IMG/VR virus record: IMGVR_UViG_3300033144_007709
Location: 1-40,447 of that record
DNA length: 40,447 bases
Origin: a virus
Reading direction: 5' to 3' (one strand)
Position numbers and translations under genes: made by a program. How positions within the stretch are numbered: the stretch's first letter is position 1; each line of letters starts with the position of its first letter. The notes under the pieces were generated by a model, which saw nothing but the letters and a program-made list of their open reading frames with translations, was not told the origin of the DNA and made no database searches. Below, piece after piece: positions 763 to 29,800 of the stretch.

Positions 763-1134
763 ATTATGTTTCCTTCTTGCCCGAGCCATAGACTCTAAAA
801 CAGAAGGTCTGAAAAAAGGCTGAGGAGTAATTCCTTTTTTTTCTCCATACTTCGGTTTGGTTTCCCCGACCATTGAAACAAAAGAAGCACTTCCGCTTTT
901 TCCTGTTCCAAATTCCTGATAGACTCCATACTTTACTCCATCAGCTACAATTATTTTATCCGCGGGTTCTCTTGGGTTCATATGAATAGAAGCTCTCAGT
1001 TTCCCCAAGTCCACCGGAGCTTTTCGCTTTGAAGTATTCCGAATATCGAGCATGACTTCAAAAAGAATTTCTTTGAGCTGTTTCTCGACAGCTTTTTGGG
1101 CGGCGTTATCATCGAACCTTGCTTCAATCCTCAT
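754..1134 (-). CDS. HK97 gp10-like tail completion protein
   Basis: 126 residues from the chosen ATG. The frame is open further upstream, but that part overlaps the end of the previous gene. The start at 1134 is preceded by GGAAATGATGATA, which resembles the GGAGATGATGGA leaders of other genes here. Family hallmarks are visible: an N-terminal helix (AAQKAVEKQLKEIL), KRKAPVDLGKLRASI, then YGVYQEFGTG and TPQPFFRP near the C terminus. Members of this family act in joining tail to head. It lies between the head-closure fusion and the tail terminator, the usual order. Function is confident at family level. Confidence 0.85.
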   Translation of the reverse strand: MRIEARFDDNAAQKAVEKQLKEILFEVMLDIRNTSKRKAPVDLGKLRASIHMNPREPADKIIVADGVKYGVYQEFGTGKSGSASFVSMVGETKPKYGEKKGITPQPFFRPSVLESMARARRKHNLK

Positions 1135-3733
1135 TATCATCATTTCCGTATTGTCTAAGCAAGAGCTTATTGAAAACCTTTGTGGGTCCACCATATTTTC
1201 CAATTACCTTTTCAACAATATACTCCGTTCCATCATCCATTGCAATTTTGTCTCCTGTCTTGACTCCTCTAAGAGTTCCGGAAACAGAAATTTTTGGTTT
1301 AACATAAGCCTTCATTAGCCCGGTGATTGAAATTCCTTCGGGCTTGAGGTCTCTGTCTTTTTCCGTGATAGGTTGAACTAAGAGGTCAATGGTTTTAGTG
1401 AAAGAAGCGGTTGCTCCGGTAGAGCCTCCCATTGCATTTTTTGTTTCGGTGTAGCGGGTCCACTCGACCTCTTGCTGGAATGGAACATCAGCCAGGATTG
1501 TCAGGAAGTCCGCGGCCATTCCTTTAATATATTCTTTGAGCTCTGTTGAAACCGAGTCAGTTATTGAAAAGGAATCCTCAAACTCCAAAGAAGTTAGTTT
1601 CGTCAAGGACTCCGAGACCGAGAAGGAATCGGTGAGAATCTTTCCATAAACTTCTTCCGCTGAGCTCACGATTGTAAAATTATCCGAGAGGACTTTTTCT
1701 GTTAATTTCAAAACAGAATCATTCAAAGCAAACGAATCACTCAGGCTTGTAGAGAAATGTTTTGTTGAAGTATCTATCAGCTCAAAGGAATCGCTTAAAA
1801 CTTTCTGAGTGCTTTTAACGAGAGCATCCTCAAAAGAAAACGAATCCGAAAAAGTCTTGTTGGTTTGCTTAATTATCGAGTCCACTAAAGAGAAGGAATC
1901 GCTGAGGACTTTACCCGGAGTCTTGGAAACCGCCTCGTTTAAAGTGAACTCATCCGAGAGCTCTTTGAAATGGGCTTTGGTCGAAGTATCTACTAATTGG
2001 AACGAATCAGCTAAGGCATGAAGCACTATATCCTTCACAATCGAATCGCTTAAAGAAAACGCATCACTAAATACCTTTTCCGTGGACTTCGAGAGCTCAT
2101 CACTAACAGAAAAGCCATCTGATAGGCTCTTGGCTATACTCTTTTCAATAGTATCTGAGAGAGTAAAAGAGTCAGAAAATTCCTTTGAAGTATCTCGGGC
2201 CACGGAATCATTCAAGGAGAACGAATCAGTTAAGGTTCTCATACCCGAGTAAATCTTGGAAAGGTTCTCCTGTATTGAAAAAGCATCCGTCAAAGTTTTG
2301 GAGTGAGTCTTTTCCGCTCCGTCTGTAATCGAAAATGAATCACTTAGAGATTTAGAAATATCCCGGGAGAGAGCCTCTGAGACCAAAAAAGAATCTGAAA
2401 GAACCTTTACAGGAGTCTTTATCAGCAAATCAGTTAGCCCAAACGAGTCATACAAGGTCTTTCTGGGAGTCTTTATCACCGAATCCGCTATGGAATACGA
2501 GTCAGAGAGTACCTTTCCGGTGAACTTTTCAACCGAGTCAGTTAAGGCAAAGGAGTCCGAGAAAGTTTTGCTTGTTTCTTTTTCAATGGAATCGTTTAAG
2601 GCAAAGGAGTCCGAAAAGGTTCTTAGGAAAGTTCCTGTTTTACTCAGCGCATCATTCAAAGAAAAAATGTCGCTGAGTACTTTGGAGTACTGCTTAGTAC
2701 TCGCATCAACGAGCTGGAAGGAATCCGATAAATCTTTGTAAGCGGTTTTTTCAATAGTTTCACTTATTGAAAAGGAATCTGAAAATTCTTTCGAGGTTTG
2801 TTTTGTCAAGGACTCGGAGAGAGTGAACGAATCACTTAGCTCCTTGGAGGTCTCCCGGGAGAGAGAATCATTCAAGGAAAAAGAATCCGTTAGCATTCGG
2901 ACAAAAACTTTTATGCTTTCAAGAGACTCGGAAACCGAGAAGGCATCGGAGAGAGTTTTTTGAGTGAGCTTTACGAGAACCTCATTAATCGTAAACTCAT
3001 CAGTTAAAACTTTTGAAGTGTCTCGAATCACCGAGTCAGAAACAGAAAACGAATCGCTCAAAACCTTAACCGCTTGCCTTGAGTCTCCATCGCTTAAAGT
3101 AAACGAATCCGAGAAAGTCCGGAAAAATTCTCCTTGTTTTGAAAGAGTATCATGGAGAGAAAAAGAATCACTCAAAACCTTTCCGGGCTCTTTAGTCAAA
3201 GCATCATTCAAAGAAAAAGAATCGCTCAAGGTTTTGCTCGAGGTTTTCTCAACAGAGTCCACTAAGGAAAAAGAATCACTCAAGATTTTCTGAGCGTTCA
3301 AATAACTTCCGTCAATTAAAGAAAGCGAATCAGAGAGAACCTTTCCGGTTAACCTTGAAGCAGAGTCAGTCAAAGAAAAGGAATCTGAAAGCTCTCGGGC
3401 CAAGCTTCGGTTTCCTGCATCCACCATTGAAAAAGAATCACTTAGCTCTTTGGAAGTGCTTTTCAGAACAGCCTCCGAGATTGAAAACGAGTCCGATAAA
3501 TCTTTCTGGGGTTCTTTCTCTAAAGCCTCAGCTATCGAAAAAGAATCACTCAAAAGTTTTGAAGTGGTTTTAATGTCTCCATCTGAAACAGTTAAAGTAT
3601 CAGAGAGGACTTTTCCGGCTTGAAGAGAATAACTATCAACCAATGAAAACGAGTCCACTATCTGAATGTCGTTGTAGTAAGACTCGTCGTATTTTTCGTA
3701 TTTTCCTGTTCCGTATAGTGCAGAGTACGCCAT
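1124..3733 (-). CDS. Giant 18-residue repeat protein fused to a head-closure (stopper) domain
   Basis: 869 residues. After a short N-terminal stretch (about 1-24) there are 39 tandem units of about 18 residues, consensus LSDSFSLxDxxxKxxxKx, reaching about residue 737. Most units are exactly 18 residues. Units 10, 14, 19 and 26 have 20 residues and end in RT or RM; unit 30 has 19. The last 130 residues are unrelated: a beta-rich domain with LVQPITEKDR, SGTLRGVKTGDKI and GTEYIVEKV. This resembles phage head-tail joining proteins, and the position just before a gp10-like gene fits. I infer a neck protein carrying a long repetitive arm, a whisker or adhesin. Similar DSxSLSDS repeats occur in large archaeal surface proteins, from memory. 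The repeat fold is unknown. Confidence 0.75.
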   Translation of the reverse strand: MAYSALYGTGKYEKYDESYYNDIQIVDSFSLVDSYSLQAGKVLSDTLTVSDGDIKTTSKLLSDSFSIAEALEKEPQKDLSDSFSISEAVLKSTSKELSDSFSMVDAGNRSLARELSDSFSLTDSASRLTGKVLSDSLSLIDGSYLNAQKILSDSFSLVDSVEKTSSKTLSDSFSLNDALTKEPGKVLSDSFSLHDTLSKQGEFFRTFSDSFTLSDGDSRQAVKVLSDSFSVSDSVIRDTSKVLTDEFTINEVLVKLTQKTLSDAFSVSESLESIKVFVRMLTDSFSLNDSLSRETSKELSDSFTLSESLTKQTSKEFSDSFSISETIEKTAYKDLSDSFQLVDASTKQYSKVLSDIFSLNDALSKTGTFLRTFSDSFALNDSIEKETSKTFSDSFALTDSVEKFTGKVLSDSYSIADSVIKTPRKTLYDSFGLTDLLIKTPVKVLSDSFLVSEALSRDISKSLSDSFSITDGAEKTHSKTLTDAFSIQENLSKIYSGMRTLTDSFSLNDSVARDTSKEFSDSFTLSDTIEKSIAKSLSDGFSVSDELSKSTEKVFSDAFSLSDSIVKDIVLHALADSFQLVDTSTKAHFKELSDEFTLNEAVSKTPGKVLSDSFSLVDSIIKQTNKTFSDSFSFEDALVKSTQKVLSDSFELIDTSTKHFSTSLSDSFALNDSVLKLTEKVLSDNFTIVSSAEEVYGKILTDSFSVSESLTKLTSLEFEDSFSITDSVSTELKEYIKGMAADFLTILADVPFQQEVEWTRYTETKNAMGGSTGATASFTKTIDLLVQPITEKDRDLKPEGISITGLMKAYVKPKISVSGTLRGVKTGDKIAMDDGTEYIVEKVIGKYGGPTKVFNKLLLRQYGNDDNED

Positions 3734-15382: not shown

Positions 15383-15392
15383 ACTATTTAAG
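15383..15392 (-). promoter_or_regulatory. TATA-like box for the portal gene
   Basis: The minus strand reads CTTAAATAGT just after the large terminase stop. The portal ATG is 37 bases downstream with no ribosome binding site between. The same ten bases recur at 753-762. In archaea a TATA box about 26 bases before the start site would give a nearly leaderless portal transcript. Inferred, not tested. Confidence 0.5.
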
Positions 15393-15394
15393 CT

Positions 15395-16828
15395 TTACGC
15401 AAACGCAAACGAGAACACTTCACCTTCCCACAGAGCAATATTCGAGGAGTCCGCCCAATCCGGAGACTTGTCCTCTGGGTCAATTACTTTCATTTTGCCT
15501 GAACTCGTTCTTTCAAATTTCATTTTACGAAGTTCTTCCATTAACCTGTAACCGTTCTTTGGGTCCACTAAGCGAATTAATTTCTTCGTGGCTTGTCTTT
15601 CGTATTCGCGGAAGGACTGAGCTTTTAAATTTGTATAAAGTTCTTTGCGTTTTGTCGGGCTTGCTCCTGCAATAAAATGAGAAACTTTTTCAGAAAGGCA
15701 ATCTATTTCCCCAAGCCTGTCTGAAACTCCTCCTCCTACTCCAATATCATCTATCCCGATTAAATCCACTTGTTCGGTTCTATCCCAGTCAACTACAAGC
15801 CCAACGGTTTTCATCGTGTCCTTCTTTGACAAGAATCGGCTCTCCATTAAAAATTTCTTTAAACCGTATTGGTGAACCAGGTAAACAACAGAATAGTCCT
15901 TTCCGAATCTCGCCACGTCTACTCCGAGCTTTTTCCGGTCAGGAGGAGTTTTCAAGAGTTCTATTTCCTCGTCTGTTAAAGGAGCAACGATGTTCCTCAA
16001 AGCCTTTTCTGAAAAGAGCTGGTCTTCCATTTCCTCGGGCCACAGAGCCTCGTACCAAATCCTAAACTCGTTATCGTTCATTTCTGCCTTTCGGTCCATG
16101 ACAAATTCTTCTGTCATTCTACCTGCTTCAACGCATTGCCTCCAGTCAATTCGCATAAAGTACCATTTTGGGTCTGTTGATTTCTCCCACATATACCCAT
16201 AAACCACCGGGTTACCGATGATAAAAATTGAAGAGTCAGGAGAGTCTCCGAGCATTCTCATTATCTTGGTTCGCATTATCTCGGCTGGAATCTGTTCTCC
16301 TTCATCTACAAAAATAAGAGTTCCCCCCCATCCAACAAGACTCCTACCCGAAGTCGAAAGATTCGCGGAAATGCACATAATCTCCGAGCCGTTCTTGAAG
16401 GTTAATTTCTTCTTAGTGATTTCTTTCCTAAGCCTCTCAATCCCCATTCCAGTTACATCAAACAACAAAGCGTTCTGCAAGAGCTCCGAGTCAATGATAT
16501 GCTGAATGACGTACCCCATGATAATTTTCGTGTGGTCTTGAGTCGGAGCAACTACCCGAACCTTTTCAGGTCGATGAACCGAAGCCAAAATTATGCCAAT
16601 AGCTCCACCGAGAGACTTTCCAGCCCGAGTCGTAGCCGTGCAAACAATCTGCTTAGAGTACTTAAAGAAAAGCCTTTGAATAATCCGAACCTGATAATCA
16701 GTTACCTCCAAAGGCTCTCCTTTATCATTTTTGAACAGAATCCTGCAAACTGTCTTCGTTCCGCTTTTTGTCGTTAAGCTCTCGTGAAGCCTTTGCAGAA
16801 CGTTTAAACTCGTTCCTGGCGCGCTCAT
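15395..16828 (-). CDS. terL: Terminase large subunit
   Basis: 477 residues from the ATG at 16828, which has GGAGGAAGAGT upstream; the frame continues further but overlaps the small subunit. ATPase motifs: Walker A CTATTRAGKSLGG, Walker B TLIFVDEGEQIP, and a coupling segment SIFIIGNP. The nuclease domain begins GVDVARFGKDYSV, the first acidic metal ligand, with GIDDIGVGGGV later and a C-terminal PDWADSSNIALW carrying a further Asp. Known role: ATP-driven DNA packaging and genome cutting. It overlaps the small subunit by 104 bases. Because packaging follows the DNA-modification genes, its natural substrate may be 7-deazaguanine-containing DNA. Confidence 0.95.
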   Translation of the reverse strand: MSAPGTSLNVLQRLHESLTTKSGTKTVCRILFKNDKGEPLEVTDYQVRIIQRLFFKYSKQIVCTATTRAGKSLGGAIGIILASVHRPEKVRVVAPTQDHTKIIMGYVIQHIIDSELLQNALLFDVTGMGIERLRKEITKKKLTFKNGSEIMCISANLSTSGRSLVGWGGTLIFVDEGEQIPAEIMRTKIMRMLGDSPDSSIFIIGNPVVYGYMWEKSTDPKWYFMRIDWRQCVEAGRMTEEFVMDRKAEMNDNEFRIWYEALWPEEMEDQLFSEKALRNIVAPLTDEEIELLKTPPDRKKLGVDVARFGKDYSVVYLVHQYGLKKFLMESRFLSKKDTMKTVGLVVDWDRTEQVDLIGIDDIGVGGGVSDRLGEIDCLSEKVSHFIAGASPTKRKELYTNLKAQSFREYERQATKKLIRLVDPKNGYRLMEELRKMKFERTSSGKMKVIDPEDKSPDWADSSNIALWEGEVFSFAFA

Positions 16829-17225
16829 ACTCTTCCTCCAGTTTATTAGCAGTCGAATCAGCCGGAGAAACAAGCAAAATCTCAGTGGCTTCTCCTTCAA
16901 TCAATCGAGAAAGCTTAACCGCCTCAATCGCATCCTTGTTCGAGGTAGCTAAAATCTTTTTCTCTTTATGTTTCTGAATGCCTTCCGCAAACAAGTTAAT
17001 GATTGCATTTGCTACCTTCAAGTGCCGCTCTCTTGTAGAATTTGTACCTGCTTGAAGCGCTATTCTCATAACTTCCTTTCTTTTTTTCTCCCAATCGTAT
17101 CTCTTAATCCACTTGTAGATAGTGTCTCGGGAGCGAGCTCCTACTATGTCCTGAATCATTTTTACAGGTACTTCTTGGCAGTAAAGCCCGAAGGCTTTCT
17201 CTCGTCTATCGGAGCTTAGAGCCAT
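16725..17225 (-). CDS. terS: Terminase small subunit
   Basis: 166 residues. The N-terminal part contains a helix-turn-helix (KAFGLYCQEVPVKMIQDIVG, then RDTIYKWIKRYDWEKKR), the usual DNA-recognition element, followed by a long charged helical region for oligomerisation. Position directly before the large subunit confirms the call. GAGGTTGAAGAGTA precedes the ATG, and the stop of the ParB-like gene touches this start. Because the next upstream genes modify DNA, this subunit may need to recognise modified pac or cos DNA; that is an inference. Confidence 0.85.
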   Translation of the reverse strand: MALSSDRREKAFGLYCQEVPVKMIQDIVGARSRDTIYKWIKRYDWEKKRKEVMRIALQAGTNSTRERHLKVANAIINLFAEGIQKHKEKKILATSNKDAIEAVKLSRLIEGEATEILLVSPADSTANKLEEEYERARNEFKRSAKASRELNDKKRNEDSLQDSVQK

Positions 17226-17818
17226 TACTCTTCAACCTCCAGTTTTAGCTTGAGGTAGTTTTTGAGGTTGTTGAAGTCGACCATCGCGGGGTTTACTCCG
17301 TCGTGTTCGTCGTTCCAATAGTCTTCAATGATGCTGAGGACTCTCTCGGGGGTTAGTGGAGTGCCTGTTTTCTTTCTTGGGTCCAGGTCTATTTTCTCCG
17401 GGTCGAAGTCCTCTAATTGAACGAGGTCTTTGAGGCTCTCCAGTTCTATTTCGCTCATGTTTAAGAGTTCTTGAATTGCCTCTGAGGAATAATCTTTTTG
17501 AAGGTCGAGAATTAATTCCCCGAATTTCACTGGGTTAATTTCTCCTTTTATTTGGTTCATGTTTACTGTTGCAATCTTTGCCTCTTTGGCATCTATCTCT
17601 ATTTGAATTACGTCAATGTCCTCGGAGCCTAATTCCATGGCCGCCTTCCAACGGTGTTCTCCGTCAATAATTATGTTATCTTGATTAATTAAAATTGGTT
17701 GAACGAATCCAATTCTTTGAATTTCTTTCTTTAAGTGTTCCATTGTTGAATTTGTCATTTCGTTTGGGTTCCAAGGATTCGGTTTCAATTCCTTAATTTT
17801 CTTTTTTTTGTATTCCAT
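17225..17818 (-). CDS. ParB/Srx-fold protein, possible DpdA partner
   Basis: 197 residues. The first 100 show a ParB N-terminal domain: the opening IKELKPNPWNPNEM, EIQRIGFVQPILIN, and the signature DGEHRWKAAMEL. A helical tail follows. ParB-fold proteins can bind or cleave DNA or bind nucleotides. The gene overlaps the DpdA-like gene by 26 bases. In the bacterial Dpd system the partner DpdB has a ParB-like domain and is needed with DpdA for base exchange, from the literature; here the homology is only at fold level. Alternatively it is a packaging accessory protein, since ParB-like genes often precede terminases. Confidence 0.75.
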   Translation of the reverse strand: MEYKKKKIKELKPNPWNPNEMTNSTMEHLKKEIQRIGFVQPILINQDNIIIDGEHRWKAAMELGSEDIDVIQIEIDAKEAKIATVNMNQIKGEINPVKFGELILDLQKDYSSEAIQELLNMSEIELESLKDLVQLEDFDPEKIDLDPRKKTGTPLTPERVLSIIEDYWNDEHDGVNPAMVDFNNLKNYLKLKLEVEE

Positions 17819-18590
17819 CTTCTTTCTCCTCCCAGTAAGCGTTTGAATTGTATTCTCTTAAGTGCCTTGCGAACCGCGCCCAGCTCGTAGCATTGTAAAT
17901 ATCAAAAAAAGTTCCGTGTGCAAGAATTTTCTTGAATTTCTTTTTGTACTGGTCTTTGTCGTACCTCTTCAAAGTTTTCTTGCTTGTGAAAGTGTAAAGA
18001 GCAGGTCTCCAGCCGCCAATCTTCCAGCTCGTAGAATCAACAGAGAAAAAAGGAAAGGCTTTCACCAGGTTTAAGTCCGTCATTCCGAACCCATGAAGCT
18101 TTGTCTTGTGCTTCTTGGCTATCCTAAAACAATGATTCAAAAAGGGAATGAGAATCTTTCTCTTTGAGTGATATGGAACCATTCCCCCGATAGCTACATA
18201 ATCGTATTTCTCGCAGTACTCCTCAAAGTCCTTCATCGGAGAACCCAAGTGAAAGACAGGCAACGGATTAAGCCCGGCTTCCTCCATTTTAACCTGATTG
18301 GCTCGGGTTGCCTCATGGTTTCCGATTACATCAAGGTTTGCGTATATGTGTATATGTGTCTTGTTTGCCTTAATGAAATTAATGTAGTCCAAGAGATTAA
18401 TTTTTGCTCCTTTAGTGAAAGCACTAAACGCTCCCGAGTCCAAGAATAATTTAAAACCTTTCACTTCCTTGAAAACCTTCGCTACATCTTTGCGCTCTTT
18501 AATCATCCAATAGCTCGATAAAATAAAAGGATAATCTACATGGCCCAAGACCTTCTGAAAAGATTCCGCTCCGGCAAAATAAACAATCAC
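17793..18590 (-). CDS. dpdA: DpdA-like DNA 7-deazaguanine transglycosylase
   Basis: 265 residues, a TGT-like TIM barrel reduced to its core. Key signatures: LFLDSGAFSAFTKG (the DSGAF motif carrying the first conserved Asp), HIYANLDVIGN, VFHLGSP, VAIGGMVPY and HGFGMT with FFSVDSTSWK (the Asp in this last motif matches the nucleophile region). TGT enzymes exchange guanine for preQ0 or preQ1 in tRNA; DpdA proteins do so in DNA, and short single-domain forms are common in phages. No zinc-binding Cys cluster is present, which separates it from bacterial tRNA TGT. It follows the full preQ0 pathway and precedes terminase. Strong call; whether the inserted base is preQ0 or a derivative is unknown. 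Confidence 0.85.
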   Translation of the reverse strand: MIVYFAGAESFQKVLGHVDYPFILSSYWMIKERKDVAKVFKEVKGFKLFLDSGAFSAFTKGAKINLLDYINFIKANKTHIHIYANLDVIGNHEATRANQVKMEEAGLNPLPVFHLGSPMKDFEEYCEKYDYVAIGGMVPYHSKRKILIPFLNHCFRIAKKHKTKLHGFGMTDLNLVKAFPFFSVDSTSWKIGGWRPALYTFTSKKTLKRYDKDQYKKKFKKILAHGTFFDIYNATSWARFARHLREYNSNAYWEEKEDGIQKKEN

Positions 18591-19219
18591 GCTCTCACCT
18601 CGGGTTCAATTAAATAAGAATTGTAAAGAACATAATTTCGGAATCCTAAGTGAAGCTTCTTAAGAATTTTGAAGTGGTAGAGTTCCGCGAGCTCCTCCAT
18701 TAAATTATCAAAGTACTCGAATCGTTTCCTGTAATCTAAACGAATTTTCTTTTTTGTTTTCTTGAGGGTAAAATTTAGCTCGTAAGCTTCTCCGCTGAGA
18801 GAAAAACACTTCGCTCCGTTGGTTAAAAATACCGCCATCTTTTCTTTCACCAGATAGTTCTCGAAAAATTTCTTTAATTGCTCAACACACAAGCCATAGG
18901 CATCAAAGTCCACTACATTAATGCACCTCCATGCTTGGAGTTCTTTTTCAAGAAATTCAAGGTTGTCGTAATTGTAATTGACAATATTGTTCTTGGAAAA
19001 ATTCTTTTTGAGTTTTTCAATCTTAGCAGAATCCTTTTCCACGTTGATTATTTTGCTGAAAGGATAATCCTTGTAGAGATATTGAATGAGCTTTCCGTTT
19101 CCAGCGTAAAGATTCAGTAATTGCTTGGGCTCTTTAAGTTCATCCAAAAACTTTTTCCTCGCCAAAACCTTTCTGCATACTCCCAATCTTTCCGGTGGAA
19201 CATCAAGCATCATCATCAC
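18587..19219 (-). CDS. Class I SAM methyltransferase, Trm1-like motif
   Basis: 210 residues. Motif I is LLNLYAGNGKLIQYL, and the acidic strand 2 end is IINVEKDSAKIEKL. Motif IV reads VVDFDAYG, close to the DxDPYG of tRNA guanine-26 N2-methyltransferases (Trm1) but with Ala for Pro. A basic segment TKKKIRLDYRKRFEY follows. The gene overlaps DpdA by 4 bases, which links it to the modification cluster. I infer methylation of a guanine or deazaguanine in DNA or of tRNA. It lacks the extra C-terminal domain of Trm1. Four ATG/Met codons crowd the start; GAGTGAT precedes them and the exact one is uncertain. Confidence 0.65.
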   Translation of the reverse strand: MMMMLDVPPERLGVCRKVLARKKFLDELKEPKQLLNLYAGNGKLIQYLYKDYPFSKIINVEKDSAKIEKLKKNFSKNNIVNYNYDNLEFLEKELQAWRCINVVDFDAYGLCVEQLKKFFENYLVKEKMAVFLTNGAKCFSLSGEAYELNFTLKKTKKKIRLDYRKRFEYFDNLMEELAELYHFKILKKLHLGFRNYVLYNSYLIEPEVRA

Positions 19220-19240
19220 TCTATTACTTCAAGTCATATA

Positions 19241-19573
19241 CTACTGAGAAGCTCCATTGAATTTTTTCCATTGTTCTATTAGTTCTGCCGGAAGCTCGAT
19301 AAAGAACGCCGGGCTCTCCTGGAGGTTCACGAAATCTTTTTTCGTAATGCACAAAGCGTTTCCATCCAAGGCAATTTTCATTTCCTTAAACTCTTCTGCC
19401 TTTATGCTCTTCTTTACTGTGAGATTAAGATTCGGGTACTTGTCAAGCAAGCCTTTGATTGCTTCTCCAGGAGTCGGGCCAATGGACTCTTGAGAATCGT
19501 TTGCAAGAGAAGCCTTGTAAAAACTAATCCCGCCTTCTTTCTTTATTTCTTCCAATTCAATTATTGCTTTCAT
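19241..19573 (-). CDS. Unrecognised 110-residue protein in the modification operon
   Basis: Begins [20 protein letters not shown] and carries GPTPGEAIKGLLDKYPNLNL and AGLS-like hydrophobic patches such as ESPAFFIELPAELIEQW. An alpha/beta fold is likely; no catalytic motif is seen. Its start overlaps the queC stop by 4 bases, so it belongs to the same message. It is the only gene of the cluster with no known counterpart and is a candidate for a new component of the modification. Confidence 0.7.
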   Translation of the reverse strand: MKAIIELEEIKKEGGISFYKASLANDSQESIGPTPGEAIKGLLDKYPNLNLTVKKSIKAEEFKEMKIALDGNALCITKKDFVNLQESPAFFIELPAELIEQWKKFNGASQ

Positions 19574-20232
19574 TTAAAGCCTCCTTTAGAATAAATTGTT
19601 GGGTCTTGAACTCTTGCGAGTTCAAACGCCTCTTTTCTTTCAATGCAAGTTCCACAAGTTCCGCAGTGTTCTTTTCTGCCTTTGTAACAGCTCCATGTTT
19701 TGTAAAGTGGTACTTTAAGGCAATCCCCGAGCTCAACTATTTTTTCCTTTCTCATTTCAATGAACGGAGCTTCGAGCCGCGGAGGAGAATAATTCCCAAG
19801 CTTCAAAGCAATTTTTAAAGCCTCGAAAAATTCTGGGCGGCAGTCCGGATAAATCGAATGGTCTCCTGCATGAGCTCCGTAAAAAACAACCTCTGCTCCT
19901 TTTGAAATAGCGTAACCATAAGCAATCGAAATCATAATGGCGTTTCGATTCGGAACAACCGTTTTTTTCATGTTCTCGTCTTCATAGTGGCCATCTGGGA
20001 TTTTTTGATTCGGGTCCGTTAAAGCCGACTTCAACAAGTGAGATAAATTCACCATCTTGTAGTTAAGCCCGAGACTCCTGCAAATATCCTTTGCACAAAA
20101 TAATTCCTTTGAATGCTTCTGCCCGTAATTGAATCCAATAGGCAAAACCGAGTAACCCATATCAATAGCTTTGTAAAGCAAAACTGTTGAATCGAGTCCT
20201 CCTGAATAAACCACTACAGCTCTCTTGCTCAT
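19570..20232 (-). CDS. queC: 7-cyano-7-deazaguanine (preQ0) synthase QueC
   Basis: 220 residues, the usual length. The PP-loop is [14 protein letters not shown] near the N terminus. The [12 protein letters not shown] segment and VVPNRNAIM are typical. The C-terminal zinc-binding set is [15 protein letters not shown]. The enzyme turns 7-carboxy-7-deazaguanine into preQ0 using ATP and ammonia. Unlike phage 9g-type Gat-QueC, no glutamine amidotransferase domain is fused here, so the product expected is preQ0 and not an archaeosine-type base. It overlaps folE by 4 bases, and its start uses the same coupled arrangement as its neighbours. Confidence 0.95.
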
Positions 20233-20792
20233 TTTATCAACCTCAAAAATTCTTCTCTTGGATTCTTTCCTTTAGGTGGGTCTTTAAAGACTCCCCGGAT
20301 AGCGGAAGTTATCGTGGAATGACCCAGAGCTCTCACTCCTCTCAAGCTCATGCACAAGTGCTCAGCTTCAAGAACGACCATTACGCCTCTTGGTTTGACT
20401 TTGTTCATTATTTCATCTGCAATTTGCCTTCCGATTCTTTCCTGAATCTGTAAGCGGTGAGCGTACTTGTTCAAAATCCGAACCATCTTGCTGAGACCCA
20501 AAACCTTTCCGTCCTCGTAAGGAATATATCCAATGTGAGCCTTTCCATGAAAAGGCAAAATATGATGTTCGCAAAAAGAGTAAAACGGAATGTTTCGCAC
20601 AATAACCATTTCATCGTAGCTCTCGGAGAAAAGCCTGAGCTCGGGCTCGTCTTTGTAAGCCATCCATTCCTCGTAAAATTTAACGACTCTCTCTGGAGTT
20701 CCAATCACTCCCGGTCTTTTTGAATCATCTCCGAGAAATTCAATTAAAGACCTAACCGCCTGTTTTGCTTCTTCTCTATCTACCACGTGCAT
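20229..20792 (-). CDS. folE: GTP cyclohydrolase I
   Basis: 187 residues. Active-site signatures are present: [20 protein letters not shown] with the zinc Cys and His, and [21 protein letters not shown] with the second zinc Cys. It makes dihydroneopterin triphosphate from GTP, the first step of the 7-deazaguanine route. Its first codons overlap queE by 17 bases. The presence of folE in the virus suggests that host flux from GTP is limiting or that the host uses a different first enzyme. Confidence 0.95.
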
Positions 20793-21432
20793 TCCCCCAA
20801 ATCACTTTATGAATCTGCAACATTACTCTCACTCTCGGCTCTGTCTCCGCCCATCTCCAAAGATTTTTTGCAAAAATTCCTCCAGCTGGTTGAAGAATTA
20901 CTTGAGTGTGTTCCTCGGGCTTGTGCAAGTCAAGAAGTGAAGTTAAAAAATCGTAATCTCTTTTGGCTCCAATCACTACCTTTAATTGGTCTTGAGGTCG
21001 AAGCTTCTCCAGAAGAGAATAATCATTAAATTTATCCATATGGCTACTCGGCGGCTTTACATCCATTGAAATTAGTGCCTCCTCCGGCATTCCTTCCCAA
21101 TCAATCGTTCCATTTGTTTCAAGAACCACAAAATAATTTCTTTTAACGAGCTCTTTTGAAAGTTTAATCACCGCAGGTTTTTGAATTAAAGGCTCGCCTC
21201 CAGTAATGCAAACATCTAAGCACGGACCATGTTTTTCAACTTCTTCAATTATTTCTTTCACAGAAATGTTTCTCCCAACTTTATGGTACGAAGTATCACA
21301 CCAACTGCAATTCAAATTACAGCCTGATAACCGAACAAAAACCGTAAGCTTCCCCATGTGAAGTCCTTCACCTTGCCGGGAAAGAAAAATCTTGTTAATT
21401 TTAATCTCCGAGCTTTGATGCATAGCGGGCAT
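20776..21432 (-). CDS. queE: 7-carboxy-7-deazaguanine synthase QueE
   Basis: About 218 residues from ATG 21432. A GTG at 21444 and an ATG at 21423 are alternatives, because the reading overlaps the end of queD. The radical-SAM cluster motif is [10 protein letters not shown] (CxxxCxxC). Also seen: [24 protein letters not shown], and [15 protein letters not shown]. It rearranges 6-carboxytetrahydropterin to 7-carboxy-7-deazaguanine, using SAM as cofactor and Mg2+. It is second in the operon. Confident from motifs and neighbours. Confidence 0.95.
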
Positions 21433-21808
21433 ACTTTCCTTCACTCTCCCAAACTCTCACGCTTAAAAAATGGAGCTCTACAGGACATCTTTCCTTGAGC
21501 TCTTTGAAAAAATACTTTGATAAATTTTCCGCGGTGGGCTCAAAGTCAAGCCATTCAATCCAGCTCTTAGGAATACTTTGAAAAAAAGCCTGGTTCTCTG
21601 CCGTATCAAACAATAAAATTTTGTGGTCGTACTCAGCAAGAATCAAATCGAGAATTTTAAAATCCGCTACCATGTTTGAATCTAAATCCCAAGACTCAAG
21701 AATTGCCTCGACTCTCCAATTATGGCCGTGGAGTCGATTGCATTTTCCTTTATAAAATTGAAGCCTATGAGCCGATTCAAATTTACCTTGTGTTTTAATC
21801 GAATGCAT
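21401..21808 (-). CDS. queD: 6-carboxytetrahydropterin synthase QueD
   Basis: 135 residues. Zinc-binding His residues lie in FESAHRL and in RLHGHNW; the catalytic Cys is in CNRLHGH. The PTAENLSKYFFKEL segment and the VRVWES strand complete the family pattern. It converts dihydroneopterin triphosphate to 6-carboxytetrahydropterin. It is the first gene of the deazaguanine operon. There is no ribosome binding site before the ATG, but a TATA-like box lies about 28 bases upstream, so the message is probably leaderless. Confidence 0.95.
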   Translation of the reverse strand: MHSIKTQGKFESAHRLQFYKGKCNRLHGHNWRVEAILESWDLDSNMVADFKILDLILAEYDHKILLFDTAENQAFFQSIPKSWIEWLDFEPTAENLSKYFFKELKERCPVELHFLSVRVWESEGKYARYASKLGD

Positions 21809-23321: not shown

Positions 23322-23506
23322 TATTTCTCCTCCGGGAGCACTTTGGATAATTCCATTGAAGTATTTTCCCGCACTTCAAACCGAACAATTAACCGTTTGC
23401 ATTTCTGACAATTAATTGAAACAATCGGAGGCTTTTTCTCAAGGTCTTTCGTAATCCTGAAAACCTTATGCCCGCAATCTTTGCATTTAATTCTTTTTTC
23501 CGTCAT
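23321..23506 (-). CDS. Com-like zinc-ribbon protein (61 aa)
   Basis: CKDCGHKVFRI and INCQKCKRLIVRFEV provide two CxxC knuckles in the arrangement of phage Com-type zinc ribbons, known in Mu as a translational activator of a DNA modification gene. Similarity is to the general ribbon only. It overlaps the ASCH gene by 4 bases. Confidence 0.6.
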   Translation of the reverse strand: MTEKRIKCKDCGHKVFRITKDLEKKPPIVSINCQKCKRLIVRFEVRENTSMELSKVLPEEK

Positions 23507-24174
23507 TCAATCACCTTTTCAAATTCCAACGCCCACACAGACGGATTCCATTCTTCTAAAATATCCAAATTATATTTAGCCATGCTAACTGGTTTTTTTG
23601 TACCATATATTTTGAACAAAATTTCTTTTGGAATTTCATCTTTGTAGCATTCCCAAAAATCTTGAAATAAAACCTGTCTTGGATATTTCAATCCTTCTCC
23701 GACTTCGGCTTCTGCTTCGGCGTTGGTTATGTCCATTAGTTTTTGTTCCTTGATTGAAAGCACTTTGATTCTGAGTGTCTTCCAGCCTGTTTCAACAATC
23801 ATTTTCCCAAATTTTGCAGGAAAACTTGTAGAAAAAATAAATCTTTTGTGCTGACAATCACAAATAAAATTAATTTGGTCGCTTGTTCTATTCGGATTTA
23901 TCACTCTTGTTTTGCATTTCGGGCAATACAATACTGGTTCTTCGTCAACCACAACCGGATAAACCTTTCCGCCCCAAAATTTTGCTTTGTTTCCAATAAA
24001 TTCTCCAAGAGTTCCCCGATTAAATTGCTCGAATGTTTTCTGAGTAATCACTATCGGCACTTCAAACAAAAATGCAAGAACCTCTTCCTCTTTTTTCAGG
24101 AATCGAACCTGTGTTGCCCCATTCAAAACAGCCTGAACCTGCTTTCGAGTTAAAGAAATTGTTTTCTCAATCAT
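23503..24174 (-). CDS. ASCH-domain-like protein with zinc-ribbon insertion
   Basis: 223 residues. N-terminal ISLTRKQVQAVLNGATQVRF resembles the opening of phage ASCH proteins, and the C-terminal part carries MDITNAEAEAEVGEG followed later by WNPSVWALEFEKV, the typical end. A zinc-ribbon pair (LYCPKCKTRV and FICDCQHKRF) sits at about residues 83-112, which is not usual for the family. ASCH domains bind RNA or modified nucleosides. Function here is unknown. Confidence 0.6.
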   Translation of the reverse strand: MIEKTISLTRKQVQAVLNGATQVRFLKKEEEVLAFLFEVPIVITQKTFEQFNRGTLGEFIGNKAKFWGGKVYPVVVDEEPVLYCPKCKTRVINPNRTSDQINFICDCQHKRFIFSTSFPAKFGKMIVETGWKTLRIKVLSIKEQKLMDITNAEAEAEVGEGLKYPRQVLFQDFWECYKDEIPKEILFKIYGTKKPVSMAKYNLDILEEWNPSVWALEFEKVIE

Positions 24175-28641: not shown

Positions 28642-28926
28642 AGCTCCCCCATAAATTTTACCCATGTTCACGCCTCGCTTTCCTAAGCCTTCAATACGCA
28701 TCCAATCTTTGTAAATGTACCCGCATCGAGGACAGCGATAACTTGTTACATCGTAAACTGTAATCAATTTTCTGACATGAATATTTTTCTGATAGTCCAT
28801 GCCAACCTTTATCCTTTGCTTTGCACACTCAGGACAAAGAAATTTTTTTCTGACCTTTACAGGATTCAGCGGTTTTCTGCTTCGCTTCCAACCTTCGTTT
28901 ATTGCCTGTTGAGTTTCCGCGAACAT
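28639..28926 (-). CDS. Zinc-ribbon protein (95 aa)
   Basis: The ATG at 28926 has GGAGG 8 bases upstream; an in-frame Met at 28941 is less likely. The ribbon is FLCPECAKQRIKV with YRCPRCGYIYKDW. N terminus helical (ETQQAINEGWKRSRKP). Its start lies inside the C-terminal end of the methyltransferase gene in another frame, an unusual 98-base overlap. Confidence 0.65.
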   Translation of the reverse strand: MFAETQQAINEGWKRSRKPLNPVKVRKKFLCPECAKQRIKVGMDYQKNIHVRKLITVYDVTSYRCPRCGYIYKDWMRIEGLGKRGVNMGKIYGGA

Positions 28927-29800
28927 CTTTTTTTCCTCCAATTTTCAAACTTGATTTTTTCATTAACTGAACCAAGAGCTCTTCAATACTCTCAGGCTTT
29001 TTGTAATCCCCGAAGGTCATTTGACCTTTCTTAACCATTCCATGTTTTTCTCTGAACCACTCTGGGTGATTTATCTCTCCCGGGAGCGCGGCTATATGAA
29101 GCTGAGGTCTCCCGGTCTCAGGAAACTTCATTACATCAATACGGATTCCTATTAAAAAAATTCTCCTCCTGTGCTGAGGTACTCCATAATCCGCGGCGTT
29201 CAAAATATCCCAAGTAATTTGATAACCGCTGTTTGCAAACTCCACGCAAATCTGTTTAATAATTTCTCCTTTTGCCATTGAAGCGAGTCCTGGAACATTC
29301 TCAAACAAAATAAATTTAGGATAGGTTCCGCGGACTACCCGAACAAATTCTTTATAGAGCCTGTTCCTCGGGTCTTCAATTACTCTCTTCCCAGCAAAAG
29401 AAAAGCCTTGGCATGGTGGCCCACCTACAACAGCAATTGCTTCTCCGACTGAAAGGTTTCCTGCTTTGAGAATTTCCTCCGTTGAAGTCTTGCAAATATC
29501 CTTTTCAAGAATAGCAGGCTCGGGTTCGTGATACCATCTTATTTTTTTTTTCATTTCCTCTTTAGAGGCAAATACCAATTTTCCGTTTGAATCCGTTCTC
29601 TTCTGTAATCGTTCCCACCACCAATTAGCCCGAAGAGTCTCACAGCACGATTTTTCAAACTCAACCATTACAGCTGTTTTTAATCCAGCCATGCCGAAAC
29701 CGACATCAATTCCTCCTGCTCCGGTGAAAAGAGAAATAACCGCCATGCGTTCCTTAGCTCTCTCGAGTAAGTCCGCTGTAGTAACTCCAAGATAGCCCAT
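28829..29800 (-). CDS. C5-cytosine DNA methyltransferase, atypical C terminus
   Basis: 323 residues, or 305 if ATG 29746 is the true start; both have purine-rich sites. Motif I: ISLFTGAGGIDVGF. Motif IV with the catalytic Cys: VVGGPPCQGFSFAGKR. Motif VI: ILFENVPGLASM. Motif VIII: QHRRRIFLIG. After that the usual motifs IX and X (including a GNAVPP-like segment) are absent, and the last 33 residues are the out-of-frame reading of the zinc-ribbon gene. It may be truncated, frameshifted or a minimal enzyme completed by another chain. In viruses such enzymes protect DNA from host restriction. The target sequence is unknown; it is not GATC, which is absent. Confidence 0.85.
   Translation of the reverse strand: MGYLGVTTADLLERAKERMAVISLFTGAGGIDVGFGMAGLKTAVMVEFEKSCCETLRANWWWERLQKRTDSNGKLVFASKEEMKKKIRWYHEPEPAILEKDICKTSTEEILKAGNLSVGEAIAVVGGPPCQGFSFAGKRVIEDPRNRLYKEFVRVVRGTYPKFILFENVPGLASMAKGEIIKQICVEFANSGYQITWDILNAADYGVPQHRRRIFLIGIRIDVMKFPETGRPQLHIAALPGEINHPEWFREKHGMVKKGQMTFGDYKKPESIEELLVQLMKKSSLKIGGKKDVRGNSTGNKRRLEAKQKTAESCKGQKKISLS

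Follow-up and report, generated by a model that had tools for sequence, protein, structure and literature searches.

The DNA considered here is the IMG/VR virus record IMGVR_UViG_3300033144_007709 (40,447 bases, the whole of which is called the window), and it carries a cassette of genes for the synthesis of preQ0 (7-cyano-7-deazaguanine) together with a gene for DpdA. The window belongs to an uncultivated tailed virus with a complete preQ0 gene set and a probable DNA guanine-exchange enzyme. It is very probable that this virus makes preQ0 by its own enzymes, exchanges it for guanine in DNA by DpdA with a ParB-like protein as the partner of DpdA, and escapes restriction in this way. This reading is built on the gene identities, catalytic motifs and gene order of the cassette, on the recurrent adjacency of DpdA and ParB genes, and on relatives for which preQ0 in DNA (dPreQ0) and protection from restriction are known; the base made here and the part played by ParB would follow these relatives by analogy. 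DpdA-preQ0 viral cassettes are already known, and the window is a further divergent example. With it, the viruses that rewrite guanine in their own DNA gain a divergent and probably archaeal tailed member, and the position of ParB beside DpdA, so far a passing remark in the literature, becomes a testable rule, namely that DpdA has either ParB or a sliding clamp as its neighbour. The partner and the timing of DNA guanine exchange become testable by means of small gene pairs, and the points worth following are the pairing of DpdA with ParB, the way in which this pair persists before unrelated terminases, and an orphan methyltransferase in a slot for tailoring genes. A preliminary description of the window is supported in part: its core was right, while its claims on a Trm1-like enzyme, the host and packaging went too far.

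The preQ0 synthesis genes and DpdA

The identities of QueD, QueE, FolE and QueC are beyond doubt from their family profiles and intact catalytic motifs (Table 1). In QueE the motifs CxxxCxxC (as CNLNCSWC) and GGEP are intact, and QueC has SGGLDS and C-x8-CxxCxxC. The QueC is a stand-alone protein without a fused amidotransferase, as described before, and profile scans of the cassette and flanking genes gave no Gat-QueC, ArcS, QueF/QueF-L or DpdC family above the cut-off. Therefore, an archaeosine or amido ending is disfavoured, in agreement with the earlier view that an archaeosine-type end product is less likely.

The fifth enzyme can firmly be taken as a phage DpdA. In addition to its phage family (Table 1), the bacterial DpdA model NF041059 matches it weakly but independently (E 2e-5, residues 129-197). 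It has the motifs DSGAF, HGFG and SVDS, and D51, H166 and D185 do not vary in either of two alignments, of 7 and 11 related DpdAs. DpdA2 is reported to be without the conserved histidine (Hutinet 2019), so the enzyme, which has it, is 9g-type (DpdA1) and not DpdA2. An alignment-based structure model (predicted local distance difference test, pLDDT, 81), a triose-phosphate isomerase (TIM) barrel as judged by secondary structure, gave 32 matches at E 0.001 or better among the predicted viral structures of BFVD. The enzyme-named ones are queuine/queuosine tRNA-ribosyltransferases, including those of the phages Sonali and Mufasa8 and of Sulfolobales Beppu rod-shaped virus 1, and an uncharacterised nt-1 protein is also found among the matches. 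A scan of viral contigs with the single DpdA protein gave no match, and the family alignment was needed.

These genes lie in a series of ten minus-strand genes running from 21808 down to 15395, in the order QueD, QueE, FolE, QueC, a gene for a 110-residue protein, a methyltransferase-like gene, DpdA, ParB, a TerS-like gene and the large terminase (TerL) gene, followed by a portal-MuF gene and then a major head protein gene. All five enzymes named in the preliminary description are present on this strand with family matches and motifs. Every junction from QueD through TerL is an overlap or a gap of at most 21 bp, so a single QueD-to-TerL transcript is plausible. The genes had been called consecutive and overlapping, which is true of the tight junctions but not of QueC and DpdA, since the 110-residue and methyltransferase-like genes are between them. 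Likewise, DpdA does not stand directly before the terminase, because the ParB and TerS-like genes intervene.

Table 1. Features of the preQ0-DpdA cassette and its surroundings in the window
Feature	Position	Strand	Evidence and remarks
QueD (6-carboxytetrahydropterin synthase)	21401..21808	-	PTPS PF01242 E 1.7e-27; PHROG QueD-like E 1e-20; C-x3-HGH and DH motifs
QueE	20776..21444	-	Radical SAM E 7e-14; rSAM_QueE_gams E 1.6e-50; phrog_2076 E 2.8e-41
FolE (GTP cyclohydrolase I)	20229..20792	-	PF01227 E 1e-61; TIGR00063 over cut-off; CEHH motif
QueC (preQ0 synthase), 220 residues	19570..20232	-	PF06508 E 4.8e-66; equivalog TIGR00364 over cut-off
110-residue protein between QueC and methyltransferase	19241..19573	-	4-bp overlap with QueC
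Class I S-adenosylmethionine methyltransferase-like orphan, candidate tailoring enzyme	18587..19219	-	Methyltransf_31 E 2.8e-4, below cut-off
DpdA, 9g-type DNA-guanine transglycosylase	17793..18590	-	phrog_887 E 2.2e-53 (phage queuine-transglycosylase PHROG)
ParB-N domain protein	17225..17818	-	PF02195 E 3.3e-9, over cut-off; overlaps DpdA by 26 bp
TerS-like helix-turn-helix protein	16725..17225	-	Terminase_5 E 1.8e-5, over cut-off
TerL (large terminase), start approximate	15395..16843	-	phrog_2 terminase large subunit E 2.6e-30
Putative archaeal BRE/TATA element GTAAAGCTTAAATAG before portal gene	15384..15398	-	Sequence only

The FolE of the window is without the fused phosphoribosyltransferase domain seen in many relatives, and no such domain is found beside it in the cassette. 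In the viral DpdA loci, a phosphoribosyltransferase domain is fused to or beside FolE in 54 of 106, near-copies included (L013, L016, L018, L030, L063, L014, L020, L044, L094 and others), and at least 26 distinct FolE-phosphoribosyltransferase fusions carry the phosphoribosyl pyrophosphate (PRPP)-loop motif. This enzyme may recycle the guanine released by DpdA into guanosine triphosphate (GTP) for FolE. Apparent second FolE genes in several relatives were rejected as such, being phosphoribosyltransferases. Moreover, in one relative (L078:9489-11216) an intein that has a LAGLIDADG-like domain interrupts QueC.

The predicted base and its possible tailoring

FolE, QueD, QueE and QueC would convert GTP to preQ0, DpdA would swap it for guanine in the replicated DNA of the virus to give dPreQ0 at a fraction of the guanines, and dPreQ0 would hide the viral DNA from the restriction enzymes of the host. 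The window encodes FolE, QueD, QueE, QueC and DpdA with no match to ArcS, QueF/QueF-L or Gat-QueC among the cassette and flanking genes, as in group 2 of Hutinet 2019, and because it fits this group, which has no amidotransferase, dPreQ0 is the predicted base. In Rosebush and CAjan, with DpdA, the four preQ0 genes and no amidotransferase, about 28% and 32% of the Gs, respectively, are dPreQ0 (Hutinet 2019). In CAjan, deletion of dpdA abolishes the modification, and the modification protects against restriction. These precedents favour the earlier proposal that preQ0 is made and inserted into the viral DNA by DpdA.

The known systems share different parts of the cassette. The B-cluster phage Rosebush is alike in its gene set and the Escherichia phages of the 9g/CAjan type in the enzyme set and DpdA type, although 9g itself has a Gat-QueC and makes dG+, whereas the QueC of the window stands alone. 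The archaeal tailed virus HVTV-1 (a halovirus of the Druskaviridae) resembles it in having FolE, QueD, QueE, QueC and modified DNA, but HVTV-1 has QueF and makes dPreQ1, and DpdA was not found in it by Hutinet 2019. The bacterial Dpd system has a DpdA homologue in common, and its DpdB is a ParB-like ATPase; however, Dpd is a defence island system, whereas the cassette here serves a virus, and a PADLOC scan of nine cassette and nearby window proteins gave no DpdB or DpdC match. Mycobacterium phage CRB2 has ParB, DpdA, QueC, QueD, QueE and FolE just before TerS-TerL with no amidotransferase annotated, and its QueC is about 43% identical to that of the window. Its order is, however, ParB-DpdA-QueC-QueD-QueE-FolE-TerS-TerL, with ParB-DpdA first and FolE last, and the extra 110-residue and methyltransferase genes belong to the window. 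According to the CRB2 paper, the first six genes of CRB2 resemble those of B2 phages. The uncultivated virus contig L094 (IMGVR_UViG_3300037195_000755) shares with the window the order QueD-QueE-FolE-QueC-DpdA-ParB-TerS-TerL-portal, and eight window proteins are matched in it at 32-52% identity. Unlike the window, L094 has a QueF-like gene before DpdA and a phosphoribosyltransferase beside FolE, and it lacks the methyltransferase and the 110-residue gene of the window.

It is possible, if somewhat doubtful, that dPreQ0 is not the final base but is replaced by a tailored derivative, the 110-residue protein and the methyltransferase acting on the base either before it is inserted or afterwards; an N-methylated 7-deazaguanine would be one example. 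Both genes are tightly coupled in the slot before DpdA, and tailored 7-deazaguanines do occur in phages, such as dPreQ1 in HVTV-1 and Dp-1. In the corresponding slot of relatives, after QueC or FolE and before DpdA, there is a QueF-like gene in L094, L095 and L158, a class I methyltransferase in L102 and a racemase-family gene in L107; by its position, the methyltransferase of the window may alter the base. Similar slots, however, also hold genes without an evident link, such as an HNH-like gene in L013, and both proteins are orphans: the 110-residue protein has no relative in Pfam, PHROG, phages or viral contigs, and the methyltransferase none in phages or viral contigs. The latter has the motifs NLYAGNG and DFDAYG, and its single-sequence structure model is unusable (pLDDT 37). 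It had been called Trm1-like, but PF02005 does not match it and the matches are to generic methyltransferase families (E 3e-4 to 0.09), so Trm1 membership was rejected on Pfam.

ParB as the neighbour of DpdA

The ParB-N protein gives profile matches to Noc and Spo0J, and its residues G53 and R56 are invariant in the alignment. The ParB fold includes cytidine triphosphate (CTP)-dependent clamps. The protein would be the DNA partner of DpdA, probably a nucleotide-dependent DNA-binding or clamp factor which loads or positions DpdA. Viral contigs were scanned with the DpdA alignment and, in reverse, with ParB, and each scan gave 80 loci. ParB adjoins DpdA in 35 of the DpdA-seeded loci (24 downstream and 11 upstream), and where it is downstream, TerL is within 2.5 kb in 20 of 24. 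Conversely, DpdA is directly upstream of ParB in 41 of the 80 ParB-seeded loci and in 14 of the best 20. This adjacency supports in part a role of ParB as the partner of DpdA, and in the CRB2 paper the ParB of that phage was already proposed as DpdB.

The order DpdA-ParB-(TerS)-TerL is found with terminases lacking mutual BLAST similarity, that is, the pair keeps its place before the terminase across unrelated packaging machines. The groups are window/L018/L094, L014/L026/L053/L096/L128, L029, L037/L063 and L168. Because the large terminases show no BLAST similarity, at least four groups are counted separately, and probably five, the L168 terminase being connected to other sets solely via the weakly similar L141. 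The preliminary description had linked modification with packaging. Terminase adjacency does recur, but another large group adjoins a sliding clamp and DNA polymerase instead, and packaging is therefore not intrinsic to DpdA.

Some observations beside these terminases may be added. The nearest terminase relative, L001 (51%), a partial contig, carries neither preQ0 genes nor DpdA next to its terminase, and even close relatives thus seem able to do without the cassette. In L127, L138, L140, L142, L150, L154, L155 and L160-L162, a QueD-like PTPS gene stands directly before ParB, with TerL next in several, and no DpdA or other preQ0 gene was detected in the available stretch. The TerL frame of L053 (L053:9983-13717) has 1244 residues, with an intein-like insert which, by eye, begins after GIGCHAKGTKILLYSG. 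A fusion of DpdA with ParB or with TerS had been suspected in L042, L043 and L061 but was unsupported, since the extension in L042 corresponds to the C-terminal portion of the DpdA PHROG and L043 and L061 gave no ParB domain. Directly upstream of DpdA in L042 (3662-4378) is, by eye, a gene for a YhhQ-like transporter, with no preQ0 genes nearby, which would fit preQ0 salvage.

It is rather unlikely that ParB is instead a part of a packaging or partition module and stands beside DpdA by chance. ParB-N proteins without DpdA precede TerL in many ParB-seeded loci and ParB domains frequently accompany other DNA-modifying enzymes, as this explanation would have it, but ParB may precede or follow DpdA and accompanies it next to terminases without detectable similarity. 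Moreover, of the cultured phages with the pair (CRB2, Sonali and Mufasa8), Sonali and Mufasa8 have it apart from the terminase, and this speaks for a tie of ParB to DpdA rather than to packaging.

Some points weigh against the reading of DpdA with ParB as its partner. Both locus sets contain near-copies, so that the locus counts are not independent. The DpdA of phage 9g by itself brings about preQ0 insertion in E. coli, and ParB may thus be dispensable; the level of dPreQ0 with this enzyme alone is low (0.03-0.3% of Gs), which leaves room for a helper. In addition, a PDB fold search with the DpdA model gave generic TIM barrels only, and hhalign of DpdA against tRNA-guanine transglycosylase (TGT) aligned just the local DSGAF/DSGGF motif (probability 1.3); therefore, membership in the TGT family is carried by the phage DpdA family. 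The preliminary description had named a model outside the TGT family as a refutation. This outcome was not seen, since the model groups with phage DpdAs, although the PDB search did not set it with TGT in particular.

As another partner of DpdA, a polymerase sliding clamp is encoded just downstream of it in 32 of the 80 DpdA-seeded loci, none of which has an adjacent ParB, and in that position in none of the 35 ParB loci. The clade concerned (Vid5, RHEph04, Bhz54) has DpdA followed by sliding clamp and DNA polymerase, in contrast to ParB and terminase in the window. One hypothesis from this pattern is that DpdA works with a partner that tethers it to DNA, and that ParB has that part here. In the DpdA tree, however, the clamp state corresponds roughly to one clade and the least number of changes forced by the starred branches is one, so the exclusion of ParB and clamp counts as few events and is not strong evidence, and the exchange of the two may be a single event. 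A bolder proposal, that a ParB-like clamp and a polymerase sliding clamp are interchangeable as the DpdA tether, that modification is tied to packaging here and that the orphan methyltransferase makes an undescribed 7-deazaguanine derivative, is distinctly improbable as a whole.

Finally, it is very hard to credit that the pathway serves chiefly the tRNA of the host (archaeosine, G+, or queuosine, Q) rather than viral DNA: in tRNA, both Q and G+ derive from preQ0, and a tRNA role was allowed for viruses without DpdA (Hutinet 2019), but a DNA-type DpdA is in the same operon next to ParB and terminase, and the viral DpdA of 9g fails to complement tRNA TGT (PMC6884629).

The host

An archaeal host is fairly likely from the sequence, and preQ0 genes have been described before in viruses of archaea. 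The best E-values among named viruses are to HGTV-1 for TerL (25.5% identity) and to HRTV-28 for the portal, both of them haloarchaeal viruses and only distantly similar. The intergenic gaps contain four TATA-like words (CTTAAATA, CTTTATAA); such words are not in excess across the whole window, and it is their position in the gaps that is suggestive. The QueD start has no Shine-Dalgarno sequence and has TTTTAAAATAA about 27 bases upstream, which would resemble leaderless archaeal genes. Bacterial promoter matches were no more frequent than in shuffled sequence. The preliminary description had taken the host as archaeal, of which these matches and words are suggestive, but the identities are low, and among the DpdAs found in GTDB genomes the closest come from bacterial records. 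A terminase scan of the GTDB genomes gave no provirus.

Other observations in the window

A C5-cytosine methyltransferase is encoded at 28829-29800, where the profile match ends at position 217 of 324 and the C-terminal part seems missing or frame-shifted. At 23503-24174 there is a weak match, below the cut-off (E 2.3e-4), to the DpnI / Dam-replacing family. Upstream elements like TTTACTCAGTATAATTTAATT precede three genes (28558-28510, 31643-31606 and about 33000) and are possibly operators or promoters. Furthermore, an 869-residue protein (1124-3733) has many N-terminal repeats of the LSDSFSLxDS type and is probably a virion surface or fibre protein.

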